Source: Symbiodinium sp. CCMP2592 (Eukaryota > Sar > Dinophyceae > Suessiales > Symbiodiniaceae). Taken from it: a stretch of DNA of 64,000 nucleotides. Shown one piece after another: positions 262 through 57,300 of the stretch. The first letter of the stretch is position 1. Each line of letters opens with the position of its first letter. The notes under the pieces were generated by a model, which was not told the origin of the DNA, did not search any database, and was given only the letters and a program-made list of their open reading frames with translations. Where the stretch lies: contig CAJNDT010004668.1 in assembly GCA_905221615.1 (NCBI GenBank), forward strand, positions 323,001-387,000, given 5' to 3'. The position numbers and the translations under genes are program-made.

Positions 262-3200
262 ATGACCGATGGCTCCGTGGAAGAGGACCAAGCGACCCAG
301 TCGGAGACCGTGACGCAGGCAACGCAGGGCTTCAATGTGGAGTCGCAGGCCGCTGGGGAGACTTGCCATGCGGTAGTCTTTTCCACCAAAGGCAATGAGA
401 AGTTCGAATTCGAGCTGGAAGGTGCCAGCGAGGTCTTCCTTGGGCGCTCGCCGGATTGCGAAATCCAAGCAAAGGACATGCACGTGTCCAAGAAGCATCT
501 ACGGATCTATCGTGATGATCAGCGGTGTTATTTCATAGAGCAGCTCAGCCCTGCGGGGACATTCATTAATACACAGTACCTGAAGAAGGGGGAGCGACGC
601 GTGCTCAACCATGGTGATGCCATCACGATTACACGCCAGCTCTCTGCCGATATAATTCCTTTCGCATCCTTCTTCTTTCGCACGACAGGACAGACTGAGA
701 CAGGAGCACCACAAGCAGGAGCAGACTTGGCCAAAGTGAACATTGATACATCGGATTGCGAGCTTCGGCATCTGGTCACAGACGGCTGGGTGAGGAGGCA
801 GTGGGACATCTCGCAGAAATTGGGCGGTGGCGCTTTCAGCACGGTAAAGCTGGGCGTGCGCAGCAAGAAGGGGATCTCAGAAGAGCTCATGCCAGGGCTG
901 AGGTGCGCCATAAAGATCATCGACAAGAGGAAGTTGACGAAGCTGGGTTCTTGTTACGGGATTTCATCTAACTTACCAGAATACAGAGACCCATGTTATT
1001 TACCCTAAACATCCCTAAACCCTAACAATTATGCAACTGAAATCATATAAGTCCCTTAACAAACCCTGAGCCCTCAACCCTAAAGCCCCAGTTGCCTACA
1101 GCAGGTGACTCTGCAGGTCGAACAGGAGCCCTTAAACAAAAAAAACCCTAAAGCCCTAAAGGTTTAGGGTTTAGGGTTTAGGGTTTAGGGTAAAGCCCAG
1201 GAAATTCCAGAGGAAGCGCTCCTCGGGAGAGAATTTGAACCAGGAGCCAGAGTTGATGAGCAGCCTTCGTCACCCCAACATTGTGAAGTGCCTGGGCTCT
1301 TGTTAAGGGGAGTTACCATCATAAGGGCTCCTTTAAGGGATCTACAAGGGTTCCCTTCATGGGTTCTATAAGGGTTCCTTTAAGAGTGAAGCGTGTGGGG
1401 TTCTTGTAAATAGGGGCTTTATTTAAGTTACCATAATAGGGATCTATTGCGCCTTTAAGGGATCTATAAGAGTTCCGTTAAGTCTTTAGGGTGAAATGTT
1501 TAACTTACCATAATAGGGACCTACAGTAAATAAGATGCTTTCCTTATTATGGTAACGTAAACTAAGCCCCTTAGCAAGAACCCAGGTGCCTTGAATGGTT
1601 CCAGACGGAGACTCATATTTACCTTGCGCTGGAGTTGATCCATGGTGGCTAGGTCTGCCAGTCGGCCCTTTTCCCCACTTTGTGGTCTTAGGTTCCTGAT
1701 GAAGCTGCCCAGTACCAGAAAGGGAGCCCGTTCTATTCCTAAACCCTAACCCTAAACCCCGAACCCTAAACCTTAAACCCCAAACACCAAACCCTAAACC
1801 CCAAACCCCAAACCCTAAACCCCAAACCCTAAACCCTAAACCCCAAACCCTAAACGGCCTAGAGGCCGCCCACCTCCGTGGGTGGGCGGCGCTTAAGCCC
1901 CTCGACCTCGATGGCGCAGAGCGACCCAATACGCTTGCCCGCCTTTCCACAGCCATGGGGACGGTCGCACCCACGATGGGCCCGGACCAGCACTGGTCCC
2001 TATCAAAAAACCCTAAACCCAAGTCGGGTGCTGCAGCGAGCAGAGTTCGGGGACCTGGAGACCTGGACAAAATTGCAATTTTTGGTGGAAAAATTCTTCC
2101 ATCCAGGCCCCCCAGCCCCCAGGTGCCCCCACGCCCCGATGACCCTGACCCCCCTCCCCCCCGCCTGCCCTGCCTTGCCCCGACCTGCTGCTGGTTTTTG
2201 CCTATTCTTATCTGTTCATAAAATGTGCATTTTCTGCCAAAGTCGAGGTCCCCTCCTTTCTTGGTGTGGGCCTAGTCTAAAGAAATAAAGAAAACCATCG
2301 AATGAGTTTAGGTGCTAAACCCCAAAAGGAATAGGTTTGGGTGGTTTGGCCGCCTTAGACGGCGTGGGGCGGGAGAGTTAAAAGAAAGAGCCATCCACCA
2401 TCAGGCTCCAACAGCTAATCGTCATATTACGACGCACTCGACAATACACTGTCGCAAGCTACTTCCGCTTCTGCGCCACTCTACGGCAAACCCTAAGCCT
2501 TAAACCCCAAACCCTAAACCCTAAACTTCTACTCTAGGCTACTGGGGATCCGAGGTGAGGACCTGCTGCACAACTTGATGTCTGGGGGCTGCCTGAGCGA
2601 GACCCAGGCGCTACGAAGCTTCCGGCAGATCTGTGGTGCAGTGAAGCACCTTTGTCATAGTTGAATACTTTTTTGGGGTACCTGTTCCTTAAAGGAACCA
2701 TTATGAAATAAAAGTCTATACTTTTTTCCCTCTGGTTACTTCGAAGTCCAGGTACCTCCATGTCACGATGAATCTGGTGCATAGAGACTCTGGGTTGTCC
2801 TTTGGGATAAATTTTGAATTTCCCCTTATTTCCTTACAAGGGGAAACCTACTCATATATAGTTTTCAAATGTTTAAAGCACAACCCTAAACCCTGAACCC
2901 TAAACCCTAAACCCCAAACCCTAAACCCTAAACCCTGAACCCTAAACCGTGAACCCAGGACTTGAAGCCAGACAACATCCTCTTAACCAGCAAGGACCGG
3001 GACACGATGATTCCCAAGCTTGCGGACTTCGGATTTGCCCGAATCAACATGAAATCGATGGACTGCCACACCTATTGCGGATCGCCTCACTACTTCGCCC
3101 CAGAGGTGATTCGCGCAGCTCAGGACCCAAACTGCGGCTATGGCAAGCCGGTGGATATGTGGAGTCTTGGGATCAATCTCTACATCATGCTCGGTGGCAT

Positions 3201-3519
3201 GCAACCTTTCGAGGATGAGGACCTTGAGATGCAGATCCTACACGGCTGCTGGCAGTTCGATGTTCCCAAATTTTCGGAAGTCTCTGAACAAGCGAAAGAT
3301 CTTATCCGCAAGCTGCTGGCGCTGAATCCCAGCGAGCGCATCAGCATCCAAGAGACCCTGAATGAGCCCTGGCTCCGCATGGGCGGTCTCGCCACTCCGG
3401 CGCGCTCCTCGACGAAGTTTACATGTGTTCCTGTCGCAGACGATGCTGTGCAGCGGGGGGAGCACAAGCCGGAACCAGTGCAGAAAAAACGCAAAATAGA
3501 GCTTGACGCGGCTTCTTGA
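262..3519 (+). CDS. FHA-domain serine/threonine kinase (Chk2/Rad53/CaMK-like), six exons
   Basis: Exons that join in frame are 262-938, 1201-1287, 1586-1644, 2555-2645, 2752-2785 and 2959-3519, giving about 502 residues. The N-terminal third has an FHA phosphopeptide-binding domain (GRSPDCEI, then SKKHLRI, then GTFIN). A kinase domain follows: glycine loop GGGAFSTVKLG, lysine in AIKIID, HPNIVK, the HRDLKPDN catalytic loop made by joining exons 5 and 6, DFGFAR, YFAPEV and DMWSLG. The C-terminus has a basic stretch KKRKIEL that could be a nuclear signal. The ATG at 262 is the first in frame; no RNA evidence is available. The FHA plus CaMK-type kinase order is that of Chk2/Rad53 DNA-damage checkpoint kinases, so a role in nuclear damage or cell-cycle signalling is inferred. 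Introns use GA, GT, GT, GC and GA donors with AG acceptors, and each is bounded by a near-perfect 4-bp direct repeat (see findings). Confidence 0.85.
1008..1195. repeat. Interstitial telomere-like CCCTAAA/TTTAGGG words in intron 1
   Basis: Short runs of CCCTAAA on one side and TTTAGGG on the other lie inside the kinase intron. TTTAGGG is the known dinoflagellate telomere unit. The runs are only a few units long and degenerate. Confidence 0.85.
1288..1585 (+). repeat. Introner-like element forming kinase intron 2
   Basis: The intron starts with GTGC, followed by CTGGGCTCTTG, and ends CAAGAACCCAG before a second GTGC. The ends are inverted repeats extended by TAAGGGG/CCCCTTA and TTACCAT/ATGGTAA. 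The duplicated GTGC supplies the GT donor and the element end supplies the AG acceptor, so splicing restores GTGAAGTGCCTTGAATGG exactly. The interior is made of degenerate TTTAAGGGATCTATAAGGG-like words. Confidence 0.7.
1733..1856. repeat. CCCTAAA-type array in kinase intron 3
   Basis: Roughly 120 bases of alternating CCCTAAA and CCCCAAA words, inside the 0.9 kb intron 1645-2554. The rest of that intron (1860-2550) has GC-rich and C-rich text and a smaller CCCTAAA run near 2490-2525. I see no further exon in it. Confidence 0.85.
2646..2751 (+). repeat. GC-AG intron 4 of the kinase, element-like
   Basis: Frame and the kinase motif (AVKYLH) fix this 106-bp intron as GCAC...CCAG, followed by GTAC in the exon. 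GCAC/GTAC fits a 4-bp target duplication with one change. Its interior resembles 8425-8515 (TTGGGGKACCTG, a GGARCC-ATTAT block, TATACTTTT, ACTTCRAAG), so the same element type occurs elsewhere. Confidence 0.6.
2880..2950. repeat. CCCTAAA array in kinase intron 5
   Basis: About ten CCCTAAA/CCCTGAA units just before the intron end. The intron (2786-2958) has a GA donor, starts GACT-CTGGGTT and ends AACCCAG-GACT. Confidence 0.85.
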
Positions 3520-4927: not shown

Positions 4928-6737
4928 GGGATCCCTCGAAGGGTTCCTTTAAGGCATTCCGTAAGGATCCTATAAGGGTTCTACTTATAGTACTTAGAGG
5001 GTAGGGGGAATTGGTAAGTAGGTTGTAAGTAGGGTTATAGTTGCGAGAACTCCATTGTTAAGGGTACTTGTAACTCGATCTACTGATAACCTACTTACAA
5101 GTTTCCCTGGGCCTCTAAGTCGTCAAGTAAGGTAGTGCTAACAAGTATCTCGCCGCTTACACACCGAATAAATATGTAATCCGCCCAGTGGCGAATTACT
5201 TAGGTAAGACTTTAAGTGGGACGCTATTTAGAGGATCATGGGACTTAGTAACTAGAGGTATAATTATGGAAAACAATACTTATGACTACTTATAACCCCC
5301 AATTAAGGAACCTAGAACCTTACTTACTAGGTCCCATGATCCTCCAAGTAGGGTTAGTTCGTGGGATCTAAGAATTTTAAGATTTGGGAATTAGCATTCA
5401 GGGTTTCGGGTGTAGGACCCTGGAGCTTCGCTGCCGGCATGCACTGCAAGTCTGTGCTTTAAAGAAAGGACGAAGTGTTCCGGGCTTAAGTTCTTGTATT
5501 CAGGGTTTTGGGTTTAAGGCTGTAGAAGTTGAGGATTATATAAGGGCCAAGGCAGACGGTGATGCGTGCCATATCTGCCAGCTTTGGCTTGCGGGTTGGG
5601 GGTGTCTGTCTGTCGGTTCGCCTTCGAGTTTGTGCATAGTGCTCGTAGTAGCGTAGGTAACCTTTAGCCTTCAACCTCTTTGGGGGGTATTGTAATCCCA
5701 ACGAGAATCTTTAGTTCCGCTTGGATACTGGAGAAGTAGGTGGCTTGAGGCATCCATCAGGGCTTCCGAGGCTTTAAGGCTTCGGGCGTTAAGGGCAAGT
5801 TCAGGGTGCTTCGGCCTCAGTATAAGTTCAAGAAGGAAAGGTGTTGGGTTTATTGGGGGTCTAGAGTCTAGGGCTTTCGGGTCGTTGGGTGTTAGGGCTT
5901 GGGGTTTTGGGCCTCGGTATTTCGTGTCTTCGGATGCTAGCGCTTTGGGGTTTTGGGGCCTTCGAGGCTTTGAGCACCGATCGTCTCCCCAGAGCCGGAG
6001 ACCTGGGTCTTAAATTGCTGAAGGCCAGGGTTTAGAGTTTAGGGTTCAGGGTTTACCTTAACCCCACGTAACCTACCTTTTTAAGGACTTATATAAAGAA
6101 ATCATATTAGGGAACCCTAAAAAGGTAGGTTCCTTAGGGTCCAGGTAGGGTTTAGAGATGTTCAGAGGGTGGGGTGTAGCGTTTATAGTTTAGGGTCCAG
6201 AGTGCTCGGAGATTCTTGTTTTGGATCCTTGGAGGGGGCTCCTCGAGTGTGGTATGTATGAAACTGAAGGCGTGTGCATATTTCAAAGTGAAGCTGTATC
6301 TTGATAGAAACATGATTCCATAGGTATCCCGTTTGGAACGGAATTTGTCTGCCGCGAGGCCTTCTATGCACTGCCCTGCTCAGGCCGTGCCCTCGACCAG
6401 TACTGCCAGCCGTGGCCAAGGGCCGCAGAGGCTGCGCATGCCACGCCCGGACCGAGCCAAGGCAGTTTTGGGATTGTGCCCGTCTTCGTAACTTGCCCTG
6501 TCTCGTCGCTCAGCATGCCCTTCTTCCTGTTCTTCCTCGCGGTTGCTCGTCTGCTGAAATGCATCTCCATGATCATCTTCCCTGGCTTACCAACATGACC
6601 AGGTATTTCATGGTCGTATCTTCGGATATGCAGATATGCTTGTGAGATGAAGGCTATGATGGTCCCTGGTCCTAGCGCAATGTTTACGTCCAGAGCTGTC
6701 AATCAGTCTCCTTGCAATTTCCACTGCCGAGGCCGCG
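4928..6737. other. Repeat-rich spacer
   Basis: Degenerate GGGTTCCTTTAAGG repeats (4928-5000), a foldback element (5231-5344), and TTTAGGG/GTTTAGGG words around 6020-6200. A frame at 6361-6490 is weakly coding-like. I could not assign a gene. Confidence 0.5.
5231..5344. repeat. Foldback element, TACTTRGAGG family
   Basis: The left arm GAGGATCATGGGACTTAGTA is repeated inverted at the right with one mismatch. The arms extend outward to TATTTA/CAAGTA, matching the related elements at 8681 and 40269. The interior is AT-rich with no ORF. Confidence 0.8.
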
Positions 6738-7748: not shown

Positions 7749-8600
7749 ACCCCAGACCCCTGAAGACAAAAAAGACCTAAACCCTAAACCCCCACACCCC
7801 CTAAATGCTGAAGCCCCAAACCCTTAAACCCCTAAACCCTTAACCCTGAAAGCACCACACAGACCTTCAAGGCCTTCGCCTTCCGGATCGTCCCGGGCGC
7901 TCGGCGCGCCGGCGCTCTTCGGCAGCTTCGGTGGCATCGGCAGGAGGCTCGGAACGCCACGGGTTGGCAGCGGATATTAAACCTAAACCCTACCTGTAGT
8001 CTCCATTGTAGTTCCTTTTTGGGGTTACCTTTTAAGATCCTAATTATATATTTGGTTCTATAACCCCTAAAAGGAACTACAATGCAGACTATAGGTAAAC
8101 CCTAAATCCAAACCGTAATTATTACGGTGTGGTGAGTATGCTGCATCTTGAGTTGTGGCAAGCAGTGGGCCCGCGGTTTCGCTAGTCGTATCATCCCCAC
8201 GTAGCCAATACTATTGCAGCATGCGTTTTGGAGACTGTTGTCTGCATGTCTAAAACAATTTGAGGTATGTTCCTGAATATCAAGGGATATTAGAGCCAAG
8301 CCCTAAACCCTATAGATCCCTTAACGGAACCCTGTGCTGATTGTCTCAGCCTAGTGCTGATTGCCAGGCACATCGCCGCCAGCGGAGAAGCCTGAGCCCC
8401 TGGGTTTTGGAGTACCATACGTTAGCAGTATTTTGGGGGACCTGCTACATCTAGGAGCCGTTATAAAATAATATACTTATGGATACTGTATGCTACAGGA
8501 GTTTATACTTTTCCACCTCAATACTTCAAAGCTCAGGCCCCTTCAAGCCACTCATCCGCGCGAGAAGCAGCCTCTCACGCTGCCCAGCGGGCTGGATGAC
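7749..8600. other. CCCTAAA words and degenerate repeats
   Basis: CCCTAAA/CCCTTAA words at 7745-7855; a GC-rich exon-like piece at 7863-7970 (frame FKAFAFRIVPGARRAG); a foldback between about 7985 and 8100; and a segment at 8425-8515 resembling kinase intron 4. No complete gene is seen. Confidence 0.45.
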
Positions 8601-37556: not shown

Positions 37557-40209
37557 ATTAGGGGTACCGTATTTTGGGGTCCTTATATAAGGATCCCACT
37601 ATTGTATCATATTAGGGTCTCCGATTTTCGGACACTCCCATTTCGTGTTTCGCGAGTCGTTTCCAAGCGCGCGAAACCGCGTTGCTCGCAGTCCCGCCCC
37701 CCGGTTTCTACAGTTGTGGAGATCCTTGTTGAGTGTGCTAGTAGCGCAGAGGCAAACGGAGACACCAAGGCTTTGTGGTAATAGTCTCCTTTGCGTTCTC
37801 TCCTTTCAGCTGAGAGGAAACTCACGAAGCTTTGTCTCATGACCTCGACTGTGACACTCCAACAGAGACACTTCGTGCGGGCAGTCGTGTCTAGTCGTAT
37901 CTGCCTGTTTGGAATTAGGAAGTATATGCTGCTGGGAAGCTGAACATTTCTGTGTTCCATGTCTGGCAGCTACATTTGCATGAGCCTTTAGCTCCGCACC
38001 CTAACATAGGGGCCTAAAGAATTACCTAGACTATGTTGGGGGTTCCTTATTATAATTAGAGTATAATTTGCCCCGAAGCCCTTTTCTAATTATTAGGGCC
38101 CAAAATTAAACCCCCCCAAGCTCCGAACTGCATCCAAGAAGCCCTCCGAGGAAGTCGTTGCTTCAGCCATAAACCCCAAACCCTAAACGGAGGATTCTGA
38201 TACTTGTAGTTGTGATTTAGGGTTTAGGGTTTAGGGTTTAGGGTTTCTTGTAGTTGTGATTGGCTTCAATGTTCAAGCCGAACTCTGTTCAACCAAGTAC
38301 CCTGCAATGCGGGCTTCGTCCTTGCCAAGTAGGAGGGAAAAAAACCCTAAACTGAACCTGAAGCCAAAACCCAGGAGCTGAACACGTAGGAGGGCAATAA
38401 GCCCTCAACCTCCAAGCTTCTGTTTTACTGCTCTGGGGAACTATGTTTGTTTTTGCATATAATGTAATTTCAAGTGATTCATAAGAGTAGTATTTTGTTT
38501 TAATGTTCGTTTCCGATTCTAAGGGCGGCTAAATGTCTCTGATGCCATTTTAAAGGACCCTATAGGTATATAACCTTAGTATACCCATTATATCCTCGTT
38601 AAGGGTCCCTCTTCTGCCTTTTTTCTGAGGCCAAAAGGTTGTTCCTTTTGGTCCAGAGCGAGTGGGAGACTCTTCAGTCTTCCTCGGAGATGCCCTGGGA
38701 AGGGCAATCGCCCAGAAGAGCTCAGAAGGCACACCGCTTTTGGGGACCCTAAACCCTAGCCGACTCGAGTGACCCGAACCTGTAGTCAATGCGAACCGAC
38801 ACACCTCGTTTGGCTTGAGTTGCGAGAGCGTAAACCCAGCTGAGCCTACTGAACTGTAGGGGCCTTTATAATTAGAATGGGGTTTTGAGAGTTCCTGATT
38901 AAAAATATAGTATAATCATCCCCATAAGGCCCCACATTACAAGAGCTCAGAAGGCACACCCAGCTAAGGGTGATCTTGAGGTTTGTCAGAAACTAAATAG
39001 TTACCAATACTATTTTTTTTGAGGGGGGGTCCTTATTGTAGTTATAGTATAACGAGCCCCAAAGCCCTCTTCTAATTATCAAGGCCCATATATTATGCGA
39101 ACATAGTACGCCTCTACACCGCGCTCCTTGTCCTCAGCCCGAAGGCCAACGCTCTGCAAACATCCAGAATAGGGTCGTGGGGCCCAGAATACTAGAACTA
39201 TAGGGGCCTGAATACTTAGAATAGGCTTTTGGGGGCCCAGAGTTCGGTGACTATAATACTAGGATGCCCAGTGGTACCCTTATTCCCTTTTGTAGTCCCA
39301 GGTTCCTTATAAAGTTACCCAATACCAAAAAGAGAGGCCTTTTTATTCTTAGGTTACTGGGTATCCTAGAATAAGGAACCCCCCAAAATAGTATTGGTAA
39401 TTGGCCCCTCTAGTGCTGCAGCTCCCTTGAGTTCTGGATCAGCCCCCTTGTGCCAGGCGCAGGCAGACTGGGCCCAACGAAGGGCGCAGACCTTCGATGA
39501 GGAGCCGCCTTTTCAACGTCAGAGCAGCGGTGTCGGTGTGGGGGTTCCTGAAGTTTTAGTGTTTCCCTTCAGGGTTCGATTAGTTCGATAGCTTCAGGTT
39601 CAGGTCTGATATTTCAGGACTAGATTCAAGATCCGTTGGTTTCGCGAGATACCTTTGGGTGTCCCTGGGTTGGGTTCGGCGTTCGATGGGCAGGGTGGTT
39701 TATGAGCAGTATCGGAGGCCTGGACGCCGGGTTTCGACTTTGGGTTGGCTTCCCAAGCCCCTCTGGATACTTTCATGTATCGGCATTGGATTTGTGTTGT
39801 TAGGACGCATGCTGCGACAGTGCTGTCGCATCCATCTTTTTTCGTTGCATGGTTCGACAAGTCGTGCCTTACGTGGGCCGCTTTGGCAGATCATGGTATG
39901 TCAGCGTTCGGGCTTTGTTCCTGAGAGTAACGATCCTACTATTTAGGGTGCTATATTCTTTGTCATAGTTGGGTAGCATTTTACATTTTTCCTGGGTACT
40001 TAAACCCAATAAGGAATCATGGTTGGGTAACATTTTATTGCATGTTTATGGGTACTTAAACCCAATGAGGAATACAAATTCAAATTCTTACTCCTATCCC
40101 AACCATGAACTAGGCATTGGTGTCCCCCTGCAACTGCAGCCACGTTGTGCCCGGTGCGCAGTGCTTAAACCCGAAGCCCTACTTAAGGCTCACACATAAC
40201 ATAATTCAG
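37557..40209. other. Foldback-rich stretch with small exon candidates
   Basis: TAGGGGCCT-family foldbacks at 38007-38101, 38857-38935 and about 39000-39095, and a decayed one at 39199-39410. Exon-like pieces lie directly beside them: 38115-38170 (KLRTASKKPSEEVVASA), 39100-39170 (NIVRLYTALLVLSPKANALQ) and 39408-39540 (SSAAAPLSSGSAPLCQAQAD then WAQRRAQTFDEEPPFQRQSS). A TTTAGGG run is at 38215-38245. A dispersed repeat is at 38285-38342. No complete gene resolved. Confidence 0.45.
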
Positions 40210-46959: not shown

Positions 46960-48290
46960 CGGCAGCAGCCTCTTTTACACTGAAAGCCCTCTAAATATCC
47001 CATAACATTCTACAAGACGCGAGGATATACGATAACATACAAGCATATGCTACGATATACTGCAGGACATACTACAACCCACTTCTTGAACACATACAAT
47101 TACTGTGAAAATACGTGTTTTGCGATACTGTGGAACCTACGACAACACACCACGACACGCGATGCCATACTACAATAATTACATCACGATATCCTGATAT
47201 ACTCTACAACTATAATATACTGAAACACGGTATGAGGCTGCGCCTGTGTCCCAGGCATGGCATCTTACAACTTTCAGGGCCCTGGATGTCGACCCCTTGC
47301 ACCGCTAATCTTCGCTTTTGTGTTTGAAGTTTGAGGGTTTTGCGTTAAAGGTTATAAAGTCTGGCTAGACATGAGTCCAGTAGCAAAAAAGGGTTTAACT
47401 TTGAGGGTTTGTGTTTTCGAAGTAGCTCTACTCAGCTTCAGGTTGTTTCTTGCAGGACTTGTAACGAAATTTGGACCTGGACAGTGTATTGTATGGGTGG
47501 TTGTCAAAATTAGGTTTTTTGGGGGGCCTAACATAGTACGGCACCTAATATTTGGGGTGCCCAAAAAGGGACCCTACTTTTGACAACCACCTATATACTG
47601 GTCCACCTCCCTGCCCTGAGCTTGTGACAGCGGCAGGTGCCGGCAGATCCCCACCGTAAGGAATTGCAGCAAGTCCTCGAGGACACCGGGGGAGAGCTTC
47701 TATATGTTGATCATATAAATCCTGCATTACCCATAAACTGCAAAAAACCATAATTCCCATAGTTTAGAGCCCTTAAGGTAATGCAGGATGAATATCATCA
47801 ACCATAGCAGAGGCCAGTAGGTTGAGATCGAGCCGGGCCCGTTTTAGTTCTTAGGGCTTCCACTGTCTTACGGGTGGGTACATCGATTTAGGGTTTTGGG
47901 GCTTGTGGTTTAGGGGTTTAGGGCCTGTCGTGAGTCTGATGTTCATGCTATCGTCAGAGAAGCAGTTCCGAGACTGATATGGATAACAGCTTCTTTGCTT
48001 GTGGAATGCTCCGGTCGGCTCATGCTTCAAGGGCATCAGGATATCGGGTGATGCATCGAAGTTGAGGGGAGAGTCGCCTGTGATCCTCTCCTCAATTGCT
48101 AAGACCTCGTAAAAGGAAACAGCCGTATCACCAGACACAGGAGGTTGAGGTAGGAGAGGTCTCTCGGAGGCCTGGCGCGATTCCGAAAGCCCCGTGTGTG
48201 CCCTGCAGGTCCATACCAACTGTTTTTGGTCAGCATTGCTTGTGAATCAGAGCAACCCTCGAGCCAGCTTGCGGAGACATCAATATCCAT
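46960..48290. other. Spacer before the split membrane-protein gene
   Basis: ATAC-rich text (47000-47230), a G/A foldback-like stretch (about 47495-47590), an exon candidate at 47636-47708 (VPADPHRKELQQVLEDTGGE then LLYVDH), a decayed TGATGGACAAAATCC-family foldback (47699-47808), and TTTAGGG at 47890-47925. Confidence 0.45.
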
Positions 48291-48314
48291 TGCTACAGCC
48301 ATTTTGGCTACAAG
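48291..48314 (+). promoter_or_regulatory. Relict spliced-leader sequence in the 5' leader
   Basis: The 13-mer AGCCATTTTGGCT followed by A then CAAG, ending 5 bases before the ATG at 48320. The conserved dinoflagellate spliced leader (known from the literature) ends AGCCATTTTGGCT-CAAG, so the match is 17 of 17 with one inserted base. Genes carrying such relics are explained by reverse transcription of trans-spliced mRNA back into the genome. Confidence 0.6.
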
Positions 48315-48319
48315 TCCTG

Positions 48320-51300
48320 ATGCGCATGGCATGCTCAAGCTCGGAAAGCTCCGATGACTCCTCGGATACATCAACTGCATCCAGCCGATCCGGTTGTTCC
48401 TTGAAGCCTTGGCGGCCTTGGCGGTGGCGATGGTGGCCTGGATCATATTGTTTGGTCTTCATCGTCAATATCACCGCCACTGCTTTGTTCTTTCCTCGAG
48501 ACTTGACTGAGGACCAATGGAAACAAGGTATTAAGAACCACATTTTCCGTCCGCAAGACGTCACCTCGTGCCCAGTTTATAGCAAAGTCTCCTTCTTCGG
48601 GCTACAGTTGGCGAGTTTCGGAGCTGGTTGTGCAGCAGCCTTTCTCATCAAAAGGGCCCAATCCTCAGCTCATGCGAGATCGGCTTGTGGCTACGCAGGC
48701 ATCAACTGGGTTCAATCTATCTTGGCTCCAGCTGGCTTTGTGCAGCACGGCTGCTACTACGGCTTACTGGCAGATATCTACGGGTTTTACGGAACCGTCA
48801 CTACGTGCAGGCTGCCGCTTTATTTGATTGCTTTGCTCTGGATGCAAGTGCTCCTTGTTGAGCGGCTCGTTCAGTTGGAACGAAGCTCGCATGAGAAATA
48901 CTGCAGCAAGTGGCTTCGTAAGTGCATCTGGGTGCAAGCCTTTGGTATTGCCGCGGTTGTACCTTCAGTTGCTGCCGGGGAAATCTTCGAACTTACGGCC
49001 TTCGAAAGCAATTCTACTGTGATTTTTACCGTCTTGTCCTTTTTGTGCAACATCCTGGCAAACACCCTTGCGGTTTGCTCCTTCGGTAGATGTCTCGGCC
49101 AGTTGTGGAGTGTTGTGCACCTCGCCGCAGAAAGTGGAGTCCCGCCAGCTGCAAAATCTTCCTTGGCACGAGCCAGCAAGCTTGCTGCTTTACAAGCAAT
49201 GGGCGTGTCTTGCAGCCTTGTGCTGTCGATTCTGACAGGTCCACTCGTGTTTGAAGCGGTTTTCGAGATTACAGGCAGGGTTTACAACTTCACGGAGGAT
49301 GGAAACGCCCTTGCATGGGCTGCATTGTTCATTGAGTTCCTCGATGTTTTGGGCAATGCGACGGCCGTGCTCCTCTTGTGCGGTGGCCACAGGTTGCCCA
49401 TGGACGACAGCCAGCCAGGCCTACCCAGTAAAGGGTCCGCCCTCTGTTCCTGCCTTGCACGGCCTAGAGCATTGCCGGTGGAAGAGACGTCGTGGAGTCA
49501 CGCTTGGCGCGCGAAAGTTGAAGAACTTTCATTGCGAGGCATGACTTTGCGCAGCCTTCTGTGCTTCTACCAGGAAGATCTGGCGACCATGCCAGACTGG
49601 CAATATGCCCCGAATGAACACAGGACCAGAGATGTGGTCCGCAGGGCGATCATTCCTCTCACCAGCAGAGAAGAAGCTTCATATACAGCTTCCACTTTGA
49701 ACAGGGACACGGCCAGACGACCCCAAGTCATGGTAACCCATAACTGGGGAAACTGCTTCCGGGACTTGCTAGCAGCTGTCGTCTCGGACGCACTGATGGA
49801 ATGCAGCTATAGCTTGGTTGCAAAGCTCCTGGAGGAAGATAGCGACTTGTTGATAGAGCTCCTAGGTCAAATCAGTCGCTTGGATGACACATACTGGATT
49901 TGCGCATTTGCAGTCAACCAGCACAGGTGCATCTGCCACAACAACCCTTACGACCGTGATCCGTTGACAAATCAGCTGCATCCGGTTTGCACCTGCAGCA
50001 GCATAAACATATCTGACCCATCTGGCCAAAGTACCGTTTCAGAGGTGAACAAATTCGATGACATGATGTATCACCTTGCAGGCACCAGCGGAGGCTGCAG
50101 GCAAGTGGTTGCGGTGGACCAAGGTTTTGACTTGTTCAGCTGTTGGGGAGCCCACAACCTCCACGCGGTGACAGTGGACACAGTTGAGCTCGATGTGACG
50201 AACAGTGGGACAGAGGACTACAGGCTGGGTTATGATTTCAATTTGATGTGGACTTTGATTGCAGGAGAGGCTGCCTTTTTTGAGCTCAATGGTGACCATG
50301 CTGCCTTTGATCCGAGTGAGTCGTACCACTGCGTTTCGCTCTACATAGGCTGTGCAGGTGCTTCTGGGCTGGAGGCTTTTGTTTGCAGATTGAGGCGATT
50401 GATTGGATACGCGGGACAGAGAGTCGGTGAGGCCTCAAATCCGGGAACAAAGCTGATCAGGCTTTGCAGTCAGACCCTGGCACAGGAGGAGGTGTACATC
50501 AGTCTTCCACCTTAGGACAATCTTTGGGCAAGGCTGATGGGCGACAGGCTGGAAAAGCTGAAGCCAAATCGGGTGGAGGACGGGGCCAGCTGCCTGGTGC
50601 TACCAAGGGCAAGGCCGCTGGCAAAGCGCCACCGAGCGACAAGGCAGTTTCGGTGCCACAGACGTTGAAGCATGATGAGTGGCTGCTTAGGCCAGATGAT
50701 TGGCATGCGAAGCTTATCACTGCAGAGGCTCTTAATGATTATGGCGGAGCAGGCGAGTCTTTGCTTGTCCAGGCGAAGAATCGCGAAGAGGCGGAGGTGT
50801 TGCAGGTTCTTGTTTCCGGGCGTGGACTTCGAAGTTCCGTCTTGTTGGCATGGAGGGACGATGAGGGCAAGTTACAGCTTCCCTTTTGGCAGAAGGGCAG
50901 GGCAGCATTACATCGTGTTGATATGCTGAAGTATGAAGTTGCGGGAGTTGCGCTTGCTACCCTCAAAGAACAGAGAAAGGCGCAAAAGATCAAGGCGGTG
51001 CCCACGGTCGTCCTCCGAATGGCGCTTGTGCAAAGCTTGGCTTCGGTGTCTGATTGGACGCAGGCCAATAAGAACCTTCGCGGATTTGCCATGGGACGTG
51101 CTTCCACGGTAAAGGACCTTTGGGGAGGAGCTGTGGAGCAGAAGCGCGGGCCTACGCTTGTTGCATTAGTTAGGGTTGATGCTGCCCATGTCAAGATGCT
51201 TCTGCAGAAGAGCGGTGTGGGTGGCCTCTTTTGGGAGCCGTTGAGCCGCGCCGTTGATGGAACATCTCTTGCTGTAAAGTGGGTCGAGATGAAGGAGGGC

Positions 51301-54300
51301 GAGACGGACGGTGCCTACCTCCAGCGATGCTTGGTGCAGAAGCCCGATTGGGGCCTCGTTGTGGGTAGGCGACAGCTTGGTGTTCGTGTTGATCAGCAGC
51401 TTGAGCTTGTTGTGAAGGCGTGGAGACTTCCCCACGTTCCACCAGAATGGACCCAAGACGATATTGAAACCATTCTTGGAGACGCCGGGCTCGAGCACAT
51501 TGCTGTCACTGGGCGCATGGCACGCAAAGGTGGAACTACCTGGTTTGTCAGGGCGGCTTCCAAGCATGATGTTGTGGTTGTTCCTGTGGAACAGGGAAAG
51601 GATGACACTCGCATGCTGTACCTGCTACCGGCGACGCCTACTAGGCGGGGTCCGGCGAGCCGCACCCCGTTGCCCCGACAGACAGGTGCGAAGGTTGACG
51701 TGGCGCAGTTCAAAGTGGTGCAGAAGCCAGTTGATGCTGCGGCAGCGACTGGCGATGCGAATACTGCCGAGGCCGAGCAGCAAAGTGCGACCAAGCGCAT
51801 TGCGGTTGGCTATCGTGAGGTGCCTGAGGGCACCAAGGTCGTTGCTATTGACCGGGATGGAGATTGCCTGCCTGCCTCCATCTCGCGGGCCATTGCCTGG
51901 CATAAGAGCACGGACAAAGCCATGCCGGCGAGCCGTATGAGGGCGGAGGTGATTGCTTACATGAATCGCAAGAAGTCTTACTATGCAGGCTTTTGGGACC
52001 AGAGGGACACCAATGATGAGGATGCTGGTGACACGGACTTTGATGCGTACTTGTTGCAGGCGGCAAAACCATCCAAGTACTGGGGGCACCTTGAGGTTGC
52101 TGCTGCTGCCGACTTGTTTAACCTCTCGGTGTACATCATACCGACGGATGCAGCTGTGGCTCCCACAAAGCATGGAACAGGGGCCTATCCTGTTGCTTTG
52201 CGCTTTGAGAGGGGCAGCGGCAAGATTGGGCACTATGACTTGATTCAGCCGAAGGAGCCTCAGGCTCCGTTGCCTGCTGTCATTACAAACATACAAGAGT
52301 TTGGAGAGGCGAGCGGTGGCCGAGGCGGAGGGGTGGATCCTGGGGAAAACACTGGTAGCCAGACTGGTGGTTCCGATGCCTGGACTGTGTACACTGTTGA
52401 CGCGAGGGGTCAGCATGTTCCGGTCGGTCGAGCGGCTCTTGGTGGCGACGCCACGGTGCCGAGTTCCTCGTCCCAGAGTGTGGGGCGTGCTTCACTTGCT
52501 GTCGCTTTCTCGCGTGGAGCCCGCAGTTTGGAGGACCCTGTGAAGAATGCTGGCGATGGCCCTGTTCTGGGCCAGTCTGAGGTCCCTGAGAGGCTGGAGG
52601 TCGCTGCGGCGGACATCGCTAACCTGCGAGACTTCGATGAGGAGCAGCATGAGTCGAGTGTTGTGCCGCCCAATGTCAACAAAGGCAAGAAGCGGCTGAT
52701 GGGATGGAAATGCCCGGTACCTGGCTGTGGGTATGCTTGTGAAGGCAGGCATTGGGCTCTTCGCAAAGGGCTGCATGTTCGCAAATGGCATCTGGAGCAG
52801 CGGCGTCAGCTTTCGCTACGAGGCCACATTGAGGAGCCGATCGAGGTCGCGGATAACATTGAGGTCGCTTGGCGCTGTCCTGTGTGTTACAAGGCATACA
52901 CCAAGGAGCTCAGTTTGACTGCAGACCAGCTCAGGGCACGGAAAGAGGCGCATGGCCTCAGAGCGCATCCCGATGAGAATCAAGCGCTCTTCAGGAGGAG
53001 GTTTAGACAGGCTACGGGAGCCAACGCACGCAAGGCCACCATCGCTGTCAGAGCGGCTGGCCTGGCTTCCAGACTGTCTAAGATCAAGCGAGGTATTGGA
53101 CCGCATGCTGATGTTTTCACGGTGGATGTCCCCGCGACGCATGGCAAGCGGAAGAGCTCTTCGTATTTTGTTTGCAAGCGCTGCAGATATGTTGCTCATA
53201 CTGCCAAGGTTCTTGAGGGCAAGCGCTGTGAGCGGGCTGTTGGGCTGTCGCAGCAACGGCGAGTGTTGTTGAAGAGGCTGCGGGCACAGAGCGAGGATGC
53301 TAGTTTCGATGAGCGGCTCCGCCAAGGTGCTCGTGAGCTTGCCGCTTTTCTGGATTCTGACGAGGCGACTGGCCGTGCTTTCGGCGGGGCTGCAGCATCG
53401 CGTGGCAATCATGATGTTGAGGCCATTCCTTGGCCACAGGCTGATAGAAGCATTGGTATCCGTTTCATCTGTTTGCGATGCCGTCGTTTGAATGCTAGGG
53501 CATGTACCTTCAGGGACGGCACTTGCGCGGGCACCATGGCCTTGGCTAAGTATCGCGACAGCTGGCTCAGGGAGCTTCGGCCGTGGCTTGCGGATGCTGG
53601 CTACCGTGGCAAGGCTGCTCGCAGTGCCAAGGCGAAGCTTGGCATTGAGGATCCGACTTCTGGTCCGCAAGGGCCACCCGGATTGTTGGGCGGAGGCGCA
53701 GGCGCGAAACCATGACGGTGCCACGACTGCTACGGGTTGGGACGCTGAATGTGCGTACTTTGGTGGGGAGGGCTGCAGCGGTTTTAGAGCTGGCGTGTGA
53801 GTGGCAGCTCGACATTCTTCTGGTTCAGGAGTCTCGCCTGCCTCGAGACTCTTTTGGAGCCCTGCAGAACATCGCAAGAAGAATGGGATGGGCTGCTTAT
53901 GTTCATCCTCAGGGTTGTGACGTTCAGGGTGGCGTGTGCTGGGGATGTGTGACCTTCAGCCGTTGGCCTTTGGAAGTGCTCTCCTGCCCTGACTGGCTCC
54001 CGGCGGGCCGCGGTGGGCTTTTGAAGATCTGGAGGCCTCATGCTCGGCCGATGCTTTTGGCCAACCTGTACCTGCCGGCTTCTTCTAAGGCGGATGCTGC
54101 TGATTTGCTCTCGCATTGTTTTCGGCATGTGGCCTCACTGGGCGAGGATGCCTTGCTCATGGGGGATTACAACCTCACTGAAGGGGACTATCCGATCGCT
54201 GATTCTCTTGCTTGTGGTGCGGTTCGGTCGGCTAACGAGGCCATCCATGGTGATTCGACCTTTCCGCCGACCTGTCGGGCTCCTGGAGGTGAGTATCGCA

Positions 54301-57300
54301 ATTGTTTGGATTTCGGGCTTCACTCCGATCGCTTGCGCATTCATTTCAAGCATCAAGTGGTAGGGCCTGCCGATCATGACCTCGTCTTTTATGATGTGAA
54401 AGCTCCTACGTTTCAATCGATGCGCGAGCGACGTTGCCGTCGTCTTATGCGCCGCATTGCTGAGGCCATGCTTCGCCATCATGATCTCGAGCACCAAAGG
54501 CGACTTGAGCACAAAGTGTGGAGACAGGCGACTGCGGCTGGGTTTCTTGCCTCGTCACTTCCTGAGCTGTTACTTGAGGTCACCAGGGCGGCTGACAGTG
54601 AAGCGGAGGCGGGCAGTCGCCAGAGAATCGAGTCCTGGCAGGAGCGGATGCGGATTGATGTGCATCAGGCCTCTCGTTGGGTCACGCGGGAAGTGCCTCC
54701 GGCGCTTCATGTTGACGGTGAGTGGACGGCGCCTTTGTCGCCGCAGGAAAAGCTGGAGGCGGCCCGTACCTTTTGGTTGCGGTGGTGGGGGCAGGATGGG
54801 GATTATGATCGCGAGGCTACTGCTGCTTTTCTTCATGCACGCTTACCTCCTGCTGCTCCGTGTCATGATGCGGTGCTTGATGTGACTGTTGATGAGCTTC
54901 TGTCTTTCATTCGCAAACAGCGCCGGCGAGCCTCTGGCATCGATGGATGGGCGGTGCGGCAGCTCGCTTGTCTCCCTTCGTCCTTCTGGCAGTGCCTGTT
55001 GCAGTTGTGGCGGGCAATGTTGAGTTTTGGGCGGGTCCCTACGGTGTGGAAGGATGTCAAGGTGACGTTAGTTCCCAAATCGGATGGAACGCATAGACCA
55101 CTTGCGATCAGCTCCGTTCTCTGGGCGGTGGCCACGTTCCCTGACGAGATTCAGGGTGGTGTTTCAGGCCGCGGCATTAACGGTGTCCACGACCATTTGC
55201 TGGAGGATTTGACTAAAGCTACGGGTGGCCGGCGACCGCTCATGGGCATCAAGACGGACATCCGAAAGTTTTTCGACAGTTTGCGTCCGGCGCAGGCGGT
55301 AGACGCCGCTGTACATCTGGGGCTGCCGCGCGCCTTAGCTTCTGTGATTCGCGATTTTTATCGTGGGCAGCAGCGCTATTTGGTCATCGATCGGGTGGTG
55401 CATAGGACGCCCATCCATGTGCAGACGGGCTTACAGCAAGGCTGCCCCGTTTCGGTTGCGTTGGCGAACTGTGTTATGGTTTTCTGGCTGCATTCCGTGA
55501 AGCAAGCTTCGCCTTCTGTTTCTATCAGGCTGTACATCGACGATCGCACCTGTTGGGACAACTCGTTGCAAGCTCCTCAGGCCTTGCAGCGCGCGGTGGT
55601 GGCAGGACGCACGGTCGACGACCACTTCAATGTTGCTGTTCATCCTGATAAAATGGCAGCTTTTGCAACGACGGCGACTGCTAGGAGGGCCTTATCAGGG
55701 CTGGAGCAGGACTTTGGGCCCGTCCGGGATTCCTTTCGCCTGCTTGGTGTCTTCTATTCCATGAAGAAGGGGCGCTTTGCTCCGGACGCTGCGTCGCTTG
55801 ACCAGCTGGTGATTGTGAGGTGTGAGCGCGTGGCTAAGGCTTGCAGGCATCTTAGAATGCGTGCGGCATTGCTTCGAAGTGTAGTGGTTTCGGCGTTGAC
55901 CTGGGCAGCTTGCTGGCAGGGTCATCGAGTCCACATGCGACAAAGGTGGCAAGGACACATCGAGAAAGCGCTGTGGGCGGGCAAAGTGCCTCGACGACGC
56001 TCGCGATTGCTCTCTCGGACTGTGCTTGGCGGGCCCATGCTGGACCTAGAGTTTGCTGAAGCTGCGGTAGTACTGAGGGTCGAGTGGAAAAGACGTGGCC
56101 TTCAACTTCATGGCCAACCGGTGCGAGGTTCACCGCGTGGTTGGAGCCGGCTGTGTGAGAAGTGGGGTTGGACTGAAGGCCCTGACTATCAAATCCACAC
56201 TTTGCTCGGTGATTTCTCTCCGAGGTGGCACACGATTGAGTCCTTACTGCAGGCCGCGACGCATGCTTGGCAGCAAGACCTATCGAATCTGGAAAGTCGT
56301 ACTGCTTTTGAGGGTCCTTTAGGTAGGCGGGCTTTGGTTTTGGGGGAGCAGAAGCAGTTTGTCAACCTTTCGAACCGCACTGCTTTCCGCACTGTCAGAG
56401 CTTCTGCGATTGATGGCATCTTCCTCAAGTACATCGGAGTCCATTCTTCATGTGCTTGTGGCGTGGAGGCTCCTTCGACTGAACATTTGCTTTTTCATTG
56501 CATGGCCGCGCCGCCTGAGCTTGCGAGAGGGCGCTCGACTGCTGAGAAGAGGCTGGTGTTGCGCACAGTTTCCTTTAGGATCATCCCGGGGAGCATGGAA
56601 CCTGTGATAGACGATGAACTGCTTCTTTTGCTGCGCACGGCTGCGGAGCACGACGAGCCCATCCTTTGCGCTACGGATGGTGGCTGCTGGATTGGCCCTG
56701 GCATGGAGAGGTGGCAGCGTGGCGCTTGGGCTGTGGTCGTCAAGACTGCCACTGAGGAGGTGGTTGTCTCTGGCCTCCTCCATGGCCCGGAACAGACTCC
56801 GGCAGCGGCTGAGCGCATGGCTCTAGCTGTGCTGAGTGTTCATGTGGGACGCACTGGTGCTCGTGGCAGGGTTTTCTCTGACAATGATGCTGCGATCAGA
56901 CGTTTGAGGAGGGCTCGCGAGGGTGATTTCGCAGGACCCTTGTCTTGGTTTTGGAGACGTACTGCAGATGGCCTGCATGGGCTGGACGCCTCTTGGGTGC
57001 CCAGCCATGACAAGTGTCGCGCCTGGCACGCGCCATCTGGCTGCGATGACAACGAGGTGCGACGGCTCAACCGACTTGCTGATGCAGCCTGTTCTCGGTT
57101 GCTGAGGCGCTTTGAGCAAGAGTGGCGGAGGGATGTTGCAGCTGTTCAAGATGCTTCTGCTTGGACGAAGACTGCGCTGCAACGCTTGAAGGCGGTTTCT
57201 ATGCCATTTTCTGATCGTGCTGTTGCGCACTATGGGCGGTTTCGAGCACAATTTACTGTGTGAGTCGCGTCTGGCTCCCCTTTCTGCAGTTTTCGAGCTT

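Follow-up and report, generated by a model that had tools for sequence, protein, structure and literature searches.

Five introns of a Symbiodinium kinase gene as probable introners from four families of terminal-inverted-repeat elements

We analyzed a 64,000-nucleotide stretch of the Symbiodinium sp. CCMP2592 genome, hereafter the window (positions 323001-387000 of contig C4667, in an assembly of 1.098 Gb and 5383 contigs). A gene at 262-3519 on its forward strand encodes an FHA domain and a serine/threonine kinase of the Chk2/Rad53 type. The five introns of this gene are very probably introners: non-autonomous DNA elements with terminal inverted repeats (TIRs), that is, miniature inverted-repeat transposable elements (MITEs), of four families. 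In the mechanism that we propose, a transposase supplied in trans would insert the element by a 4-bp staggered cut, duplicating a 4-bp target word. Where the word on the gene strand starts with G[TCA], its first copy would act as the 5′ splice site and the AG at the element end as the 3′ splice site, and splicing would then remove the element together with one copy of the word, restoring the original exon. The odd GA and GC donors would be whichever target word was hit. A single gene would thereby display the birth of introns from four families, with target word, choice of donor, supply of acceptor, restored exon, and empty paralogs.

With the five introns taken out, the gene joins into a single frame of 502 codons with an FHA domain and a complete kinase domain (Pkinase 1.1e-63 for the spliced protein), for which human Chk2 is the nearest solved structure. 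An intronless paralog, L039 on contig C4512 (loci and contigs carry our own labels), has one open frame that corresponds to residues 1-498 of the spliced protein (502 residues), and the alignment is free of gaps at each of the five junctions. The paralog fixes the junctions and, by homology, suggests where splicing occurs. Between the two copies, 315 of 487 aligned residues are identical, with a nonsynonymous divergence (dN) of 0.247 and a synonymous divergence (dS) of 1.02; the pair has therefore been under constraint, a result that is not specific to the window copy. A preliminary description of the window, made from its letters, had given the intron coordinates and edge words, all of which are in the sequence as it gave them, and had stated that removing the introns restores the exon, as the joined frame and the gap-free paralog now bear out.

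The same description held that the first four bases of each intron recur directly after the acceptor AG. This is exact for two of the five introns, and the other three match at only three of four bases. In total, 17/20 bases match, a value reached by 1 of the 120 permutations of the 3′ words, namely the true pairing. Because AGG acceptors are near-universal in most dinoflagellates, the first base of the word (G in both copies) is almost uninformative; positions 2-4 match at 12/15. Most intron ends are inverted repeats, again as claimed, with 5/5 bases of the tips inverted in introns 1, 2, and 5, 4/5 in intron 3, and 2/5 in intron 4.

Elements similar to these introns are dispersed through the genome. 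Family 1 includes introns 1 and 2, family 2 intron 4, family 3 intron 5, and family 4 intron 3; each of the five has many similar copies at sites unrelated by homology. The family-1 elements in introns 1 and 2 are oppositely oriented, as judged by alignment to the same 111-bp copy: intron 1 scores 38 as its reverse complement, covering most of the copy, versus 23.5 forward, and intron 2 scores 57 forward, over the 3′ 88 bases of the copy, versus 36.5 in reverse. Because the element end reads ..CCNAG both ways, the element would bring an acceptor in either orientation, and such orientation-free use may be general. Intron 2 has an RNA fold with a z-score of -6.3, and a hairpin may play a role. 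The first 93 bp and the last 45 bp of intron 3 align to the ends of a 111-bp family-4 element at 39259-39369, scoring 44 and 17, where 300 shuffles each reached no more than 18.5 and 12.5, and a dispersed repeat of about 800 bp interrupts the intron between them (core about 90-878 of 906). The idea that intron 3 is merely a different repeat was rejected, as both of its ends align to family 4. In intron 4, the 5′ TIR of family 2 is partly deleted.

The preliminary description had read all five introns as inserted elements. Their origin by insertion is upheld by the alignment of all five to multi-copy TIR families with 4-bp duplications at the predicted place and by empty sites in paralogs, but introns 1, 3, and 5 are not bare elements, because they also contain other sequence, namely tracts of the CCCTAAA type and, for intron 3, the dispersed repeat. 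Intron 1 carries its extra sequence and tract toward the 3′ end, and in intron 5 the tract lies within the terminal AACCC/AG. Counted over introns 1-5, there are 9, 1, 10, 0, and 6 CCCTAAA/TTTAGGG words, out of 150 in the whole window, a density of 14.9 per kb in the introns versus 2.0 elsewhere in the window. The element at L033 (1501-1709, reverse strand) likewise has a telomere-like CCCTAAA tract in or near the AACCC of its 3′ TIR, as in intron 5.

The 14-base start shared by introns 1 and 2, CTGGGYTCTTGTTA, has 2972 exact matches in the genome versus 11 for the reversed pattern, and 185 complete family-1 copies of 88-118 bp with exact TIRs were found versus 0 for the control. Family 2 ends in CCTGGGTTTGGAGTACC and, on the opposite strand, CTGGACTTTGAAGTAACC; with 40 scored among 2286 candidates, 39 other places are 91-95% identical to intron 4. 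Family 3 is a 97-bp element with the TIR CTGGGTTGTGCTTT and 604 candidates, 40 of them scored. The family-4 TIR, CTAGGATRCCCAGT, occurs 13,554 times versus 6 for the control pattern. TIRs are perfect or near-perfect over 14 bp in families 1, 3, and 4 and imperfect in family 2. Seven family-1 copies, including the reference, are identical over 111 bp, suggesting a recent burst; 21/55 match the reference at 95% identity or more, and most of their exact words are AT-rich (for example, TAAA). At L028:1501-2618, family-1 TIRs with an exact GCTG duplication enclose 1118 bp of simple-repeat-like content, in which we found only repeat-like frames and recognized no gene.

If the elements insert by a staggered cut, then copies throughout the genome should be flanked by a target-site duplication (TSD) of fixed length. 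We took copies from the first places listed by the searches, not by random draw. An initial 74 copies, with 42 exact words and 11 matching at three of four bases, became 72 when two short family-2 alignments were dropped. Of these 72 family-1 and family-2 copies, 42 have exact adjacent 4-mers on both sides (31/55 in family 1 and 11/17 in family 2, the latter count being partly fitted because the left end was set at CCTGGG after the flanks had been viewed). Eight shifted comparisons gave at most two exact 4-mers in family 1 and one in family 2, and the maxima in 5000 shuffles were 7 and 6. In family 3, four of six fetched copies are exact, one has a 5-bp repeat offset by one, and one has no duplication; in family 4, the duplication is exact in four of five full-length copies examined. 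The TSD thus has a constant length of 4 bp, as in MITEs, and copies with no coding signal carry it as well. At L036, a family-4 copy sits inside a family-1 TIR (GGGTTCTTGTTAAGGA) with TTGT duplicated, and therefore the target before insertion is known.

The proposed mechanism also predicts which words should flank copies within genes. We called a context coding if codon usage, trained on the kinase frames, gave a signal in both flanks of the copy and the frames agreed; 11 of the 72 copies qualified, and they were compared with 42 other copies in which at least three word bases match. A word was called splice-competent if it was G[TCA] or AGGN, the AGGN rule having been added after two AGGA copies were noticed; such a word would work in a shifted register, with a GN donor and an acceptor AG from the word itself. 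On the strand with the longest rejoined frame, the coding words are GTTC, GCTC, GTGA, GTAA, TAAC, AGGA, AGGA, GCAT, AAGA, GCTT, and GTCT: seven begin with G[TCA], two are AGGA, and two fit neither. Splice-competent words thus flank 9/11 coding versus 5/42 other copies (Fisher p 2e-5), and G[TCA] by itself 7/11 versus 4/42 (p 5e-4). Codon usage selects the other strand for L076 and L079, and on that choice the splice-competent counts are 7/11 versus 5/42 (p 0.001); allowing either strand in both groups gives 10/11 versus 11/42 (p 1.5e-4). The codon-usage choice weakens the word bias and leaves the odds of the best explanation unchanged. Two coding copies fall within Pfam domains, HYR (L107, word GTGA) and DUF4116 (L018, words GCTC and GTTC), and the copy at L013/L014 is near the edge of a TMEM144 match, with words GAAG and AAAG and the match extending about three residues past the junction. 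In several genes, then, reading frames and domains appear to run on across element junctions.

The preliminary description had proposed examining other introns for edge repeats in excess of random expectation. We turned to introns that were not chosen for containing elements, in 18 small loci from kinase genes with a split domain, 13 independent introns of which were resolved. L132 and L138 were left out because they repeat the intron of a close paralog, and L135, L139, L140, L142, L144, L147, and L148 are not in the count. We set the junctions in L137, L143, L145, and L146 manually, keeping frame and AG, when the hypothesis was already known; those in L136 and L141 are top placements by hidden Markov model and weak. 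The Myosin head domain was dropped as a source, as it gave too few split genes. Six of the 13 introns have exact 4-bp words, three match at three of four bases, and four match at two bases or fewer. The excess over random is present: positions 2-4 match at 26/39, with a permutation mean of 11.8 and 0/100,000 permutations as high. With three family-1 and family-4 copies set aside, 18/30 match, and 66/100,000 permutations are as high. For all 18 introns, the five in the window included, 38/54 match, with a permutation mean of 16.1 and again 0/100,000 as high. Among control offsets in the 13 introns, the (-3,-3) comparison of exon tail with intron tail was raised (18/39), as expected if AG often precedes both junctions; six others gave 4 to 13 of 39. 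The 18 introns have GA donors in eight cases, GT in five, and GC in five, and in all 18 the acceptor reads AG/G and the word starts with a probable G[TCA] donor. This mix of donors with AG/G throughout, like the abundance of CCCTAAA/TTTAGGG words in the window, is consistent with a dinoflagellate.

Four of these kinase genes (L137, L143, L145, and L146) are paralogs whose eight introns occupy eight different positions, and each intron is uninterrupted in the other three genes, although L146 only just reaches the first. Together with the intronless L039, the introns thus vary in presence and absence among paralogs. Introns of families 4 and 1 are present in L145 and L146, where the paired words are GAAG and GAAG, GTGG and GTGG, and GAAT and GAGT. 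At some of the empty sites the word is single: GAGT (L146 intron 1) in 3/3 empty paralogs and GTGG (L146 intron 2) in 2/3. The second intron of L143 has the exact word GTGC and CTTAG..CTAAG tips, and splicing it would leave two codons more than in the paralogs.

Could these be ordinary old introns, in which the repeat simply reflects the dinoflagellate splice consensus of GN donor and AG/G acceptor? AG/G is present in 18/18 introns here and, by Table 2 of PMC10666404, AGG accounts for 96-97% of acceptors in four Suessiales, 80% in Prorocentrum, 93% in Amphidinium, and 57% in Amoebophrya ceratii, so base 1 nearly always matches. In the same table, five of seven dinoflagellates have 24-37% GT, 44-58% GC, and 17-24% GA donors with 80-97% AGG, the exceptions being Amphidinium gibbosum (GT 75%, GA 0.1%) and Amoebophrya ceratii (GT 99.9%). 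Past base 1, a clear repeat is lacking in four of the 13 unselected introns, and the (-3,-3) offset also yields 22/54 matches. A consensus of this kind, however, does not account for the excess at positions 2-4, and each of the five introns in the window aligns to dispersed elements, copies of which show the same 4-bp duplication where there is no coding signal. For the window introns, this explanation is already disfavored by the family copies, and we consider it very improbable.

We regard it as comparably improbable that the gene is dying, with the elements unspliced, the window copy a pseudogene, and the intronless paralog the working gene. The paralog is indeed intact, and splicing at the window locus is deduced from homology; against this, removing the elements yields an unbroken FHA and complete kinase frame, dN is well below dS between the copies (a measure that is not lineage-specific), and the same pattern is found in other genes. 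The least credible alternative, that the introns arose by tandem duplication of an exon stretch with AGGN and later replacement of the inner part, has a possible example in the intron of L133 and L132 (edge repeats with the junction AAG/GCTGG on both sides), but the window introns show 4-bp repeats only, with TIR elements between them, and duplication leaves unexplained the same element ends at thousands of places.

Several observations weigh against the view that the introns are introners spliced at the duplicated word. The splice sites are placed by homology, and L039 is without any of the five introns, a pattern that retroposition could produce as well. Exact adjacent 4-mers are missing from 30/72 family-1 and family-2 copies, and at 8/30 loci around single family-1 TIR matches no second end bearing a matching word lies within 1.4 kb. 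The 21 family-1 copies with 95% identity or more to the reference include none of the ten coding ones, and therefore recent creation of introns by that subfamily is not seen. Two coding copies have no splice-competent word (TAAC at L100 and AAGA at L037); the codon-usage strand adds TTAC (L076) and AAGC (L079), and on that strand G[TCA] by itself is found in only 5/11 versus 4/42 copies (p 0.013). No autonomous element is known here, and no search aimed at one or at a transposase was made. Among the unselected introns, L131, L134, L136, and L141 match at two of four bases or fewer, and the intron of L133/L132 has direct repeats of about 20 bp with no TIR noticed. Given these four introns and the one with long repeats, it is therefore not established that all introns arose in this way; age or other origins are possible. 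The insert in L132/L133 (C868, C949), whose repeats surround AAGGCTGG..GCCGTACTA, appears to be a different kind of insertion.

A broader reading, which we put forward tentatively and think somewhat more apt to fail than to hold, is that most introns in this lineage are of introner origin. The AG/G acceptor and the free second base of the donor would then be footprints of target words and not selected signals, the donor G and the exon G being the same target base. If so, the splice consensus of a genome would in practice follow from one transposase with CTNGG/CCNAG tips, the GA and GC donors and the AG/G rule of dinoflagellates would have a mechanical reason, and intron gain could be counted in related genomes from 4-bp edge repeats beyond base 1 together with inverted tips. 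In the titles and abstract openings of the papers that our searches on introners and dinoflagellate intron gain listed, we found no proposal of an AG/G footprint or of telomere-like tracts in introner ends. We also considered whether the odd donors stem from a U1 small nuclear RNA (snRNA) whose 5′ end is changed. This was not supported: the 12 loci read share a ACTTACCTG core near the 5′ end, and this region looks ordinary against the canonical form, so no special U1 is called for. The U1 snRNA genes lie in tandem arrays with units of about 2.1 kb on C2929, C3641, C3790, C4008, and other contigs, with 42 matches over the cut-off.

The features of the window are collected in Table 1. A scan for CTGGG/CCCAG tips (one mismatch allowed) with a TIR and a 4-bp TSD found four elements in the window versus none at each of seven shifts. 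Two looser scans were set aside: one for 14-bp TIRs is weak as proof for the introns (9 matches with up to two mismatches versus 3.3 expected), and one for unconstrained TIRs with TSDs was too noisy (30 at 4 bp versus 12-21 at shifts). At 48149-57263, three long overlapping frames, the second with an OTU protease and the third endonuclease-like with a reverse transcriptase, mark a retrotransposon resembling a long interspersed nuclear element. A window scan allowing up to three mismatches found no dinoflagellate spliced leader.

Table 1. Exons, introns, and further elements in the window
Feature	Position	Strand	Description
Exon 1	262..938	+	First ATG of the modelled frame, FHA and start of kinase domain; Pfam FHA 2.7e-14
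Intron 1	939..1200	+	Word GAAG (putative donor GA), CCCAG acceptor then GAAA; family-1 element
Intron 2	1288..1585	+	TSD GTGC (putative donor GT), CCCAG acceptor then GTGC; family-1 TIRs at both ends
Intron 3	1645..2554	+	Word GTGG (putative donor GT), CCGAG acceptor then GTGA; interrupted family-4 element
Intron 4	2646..2751	+	Word GCAC (putative donor GC), TCCAG acceptor then GTAC; family-2 element
Intron 5	2786..2958	+	TSD GACT (putative donor GA), CCCAG acceptor then GACT; family-3 element, 97-bp type
Last exon	2959..3519	+	Kinase subdomains from HRD.. through stop codon; Pkinase 7.1e-32
Further TIR element	5238..5337	+	4-bp TSD GATC, TIR ATGGGACTTAGTAACT; apparently another family
Further element outside the kinase gene	8400..8536	+	TSD GCCC, family-2-like TIR
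Family-4 copy	39259..39369	+	111 bp, TSD AATA; reference for intron 3

MITEs in general are short, with TIRs, a TSD of fixed length, and no coding capacity, and they occur in bursts of near-identical copies. Unlike MITEs in general, the elements described here appear to double as spliceosomal introns if the target word permits it.

Introners are known from several dinoflagellates. They are reported in the genomes of Prorocentrum (PMC10666404) and Effrenium (PMC11114475), and 15 families, each with at least 100 introns, are attributed to Polarella glacialis in the summary of Roy et al. 2023 given in PMC11453091. The preliminary description had matched the kinase introns to the mechanism known from Amoebophrya; that they are introners agrees with our reading, but the closest precedent that we found in print is another. 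In the study of Amoebophrya A25 and A120 (Farhat et al. 2021, PMC7789003), the edges of introns made by introner elements combine inverted repeats (8-20 nt) with direct repeats (3-5 nt), and the likeness to the window introns lies in having both kinds of repeat at intron edges. That study describes splice dinucleotides with no clear signature, no family-specific inverted repeat, and sites that vary relative to the hairpin, whereas here the families are well defined and a probable G[TCA] donor lies at the start of the word in 18/18 introns. The closer precedent is Symbiodinium microadriaticum, for which Gozashti et al. 2022 (PMC9860276, Fig. 2B legend) describe introners with a 4-bp TSD, TIRs, the 3′ splice site in the element, and the 5′ splice site derived from the TSD; the same paper mentions GC and GA donors for introner families generally. 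The architecture in the window fits the family-1 introner of S. microadriaticum in TSD, TIR, and the roles of the splice sites, which are placed here by homology; the likeness is one of architecture, and a relation of species or sequence to the window families is not established. Compared with that description, our analysis has four families in one gene, copy counts, empty sites in paralogs, and a comparison of words in coding and non-coding contexts. The mechanism is thus already in print for S. microadriaticum, and it is seen here unusually clearly and completely.
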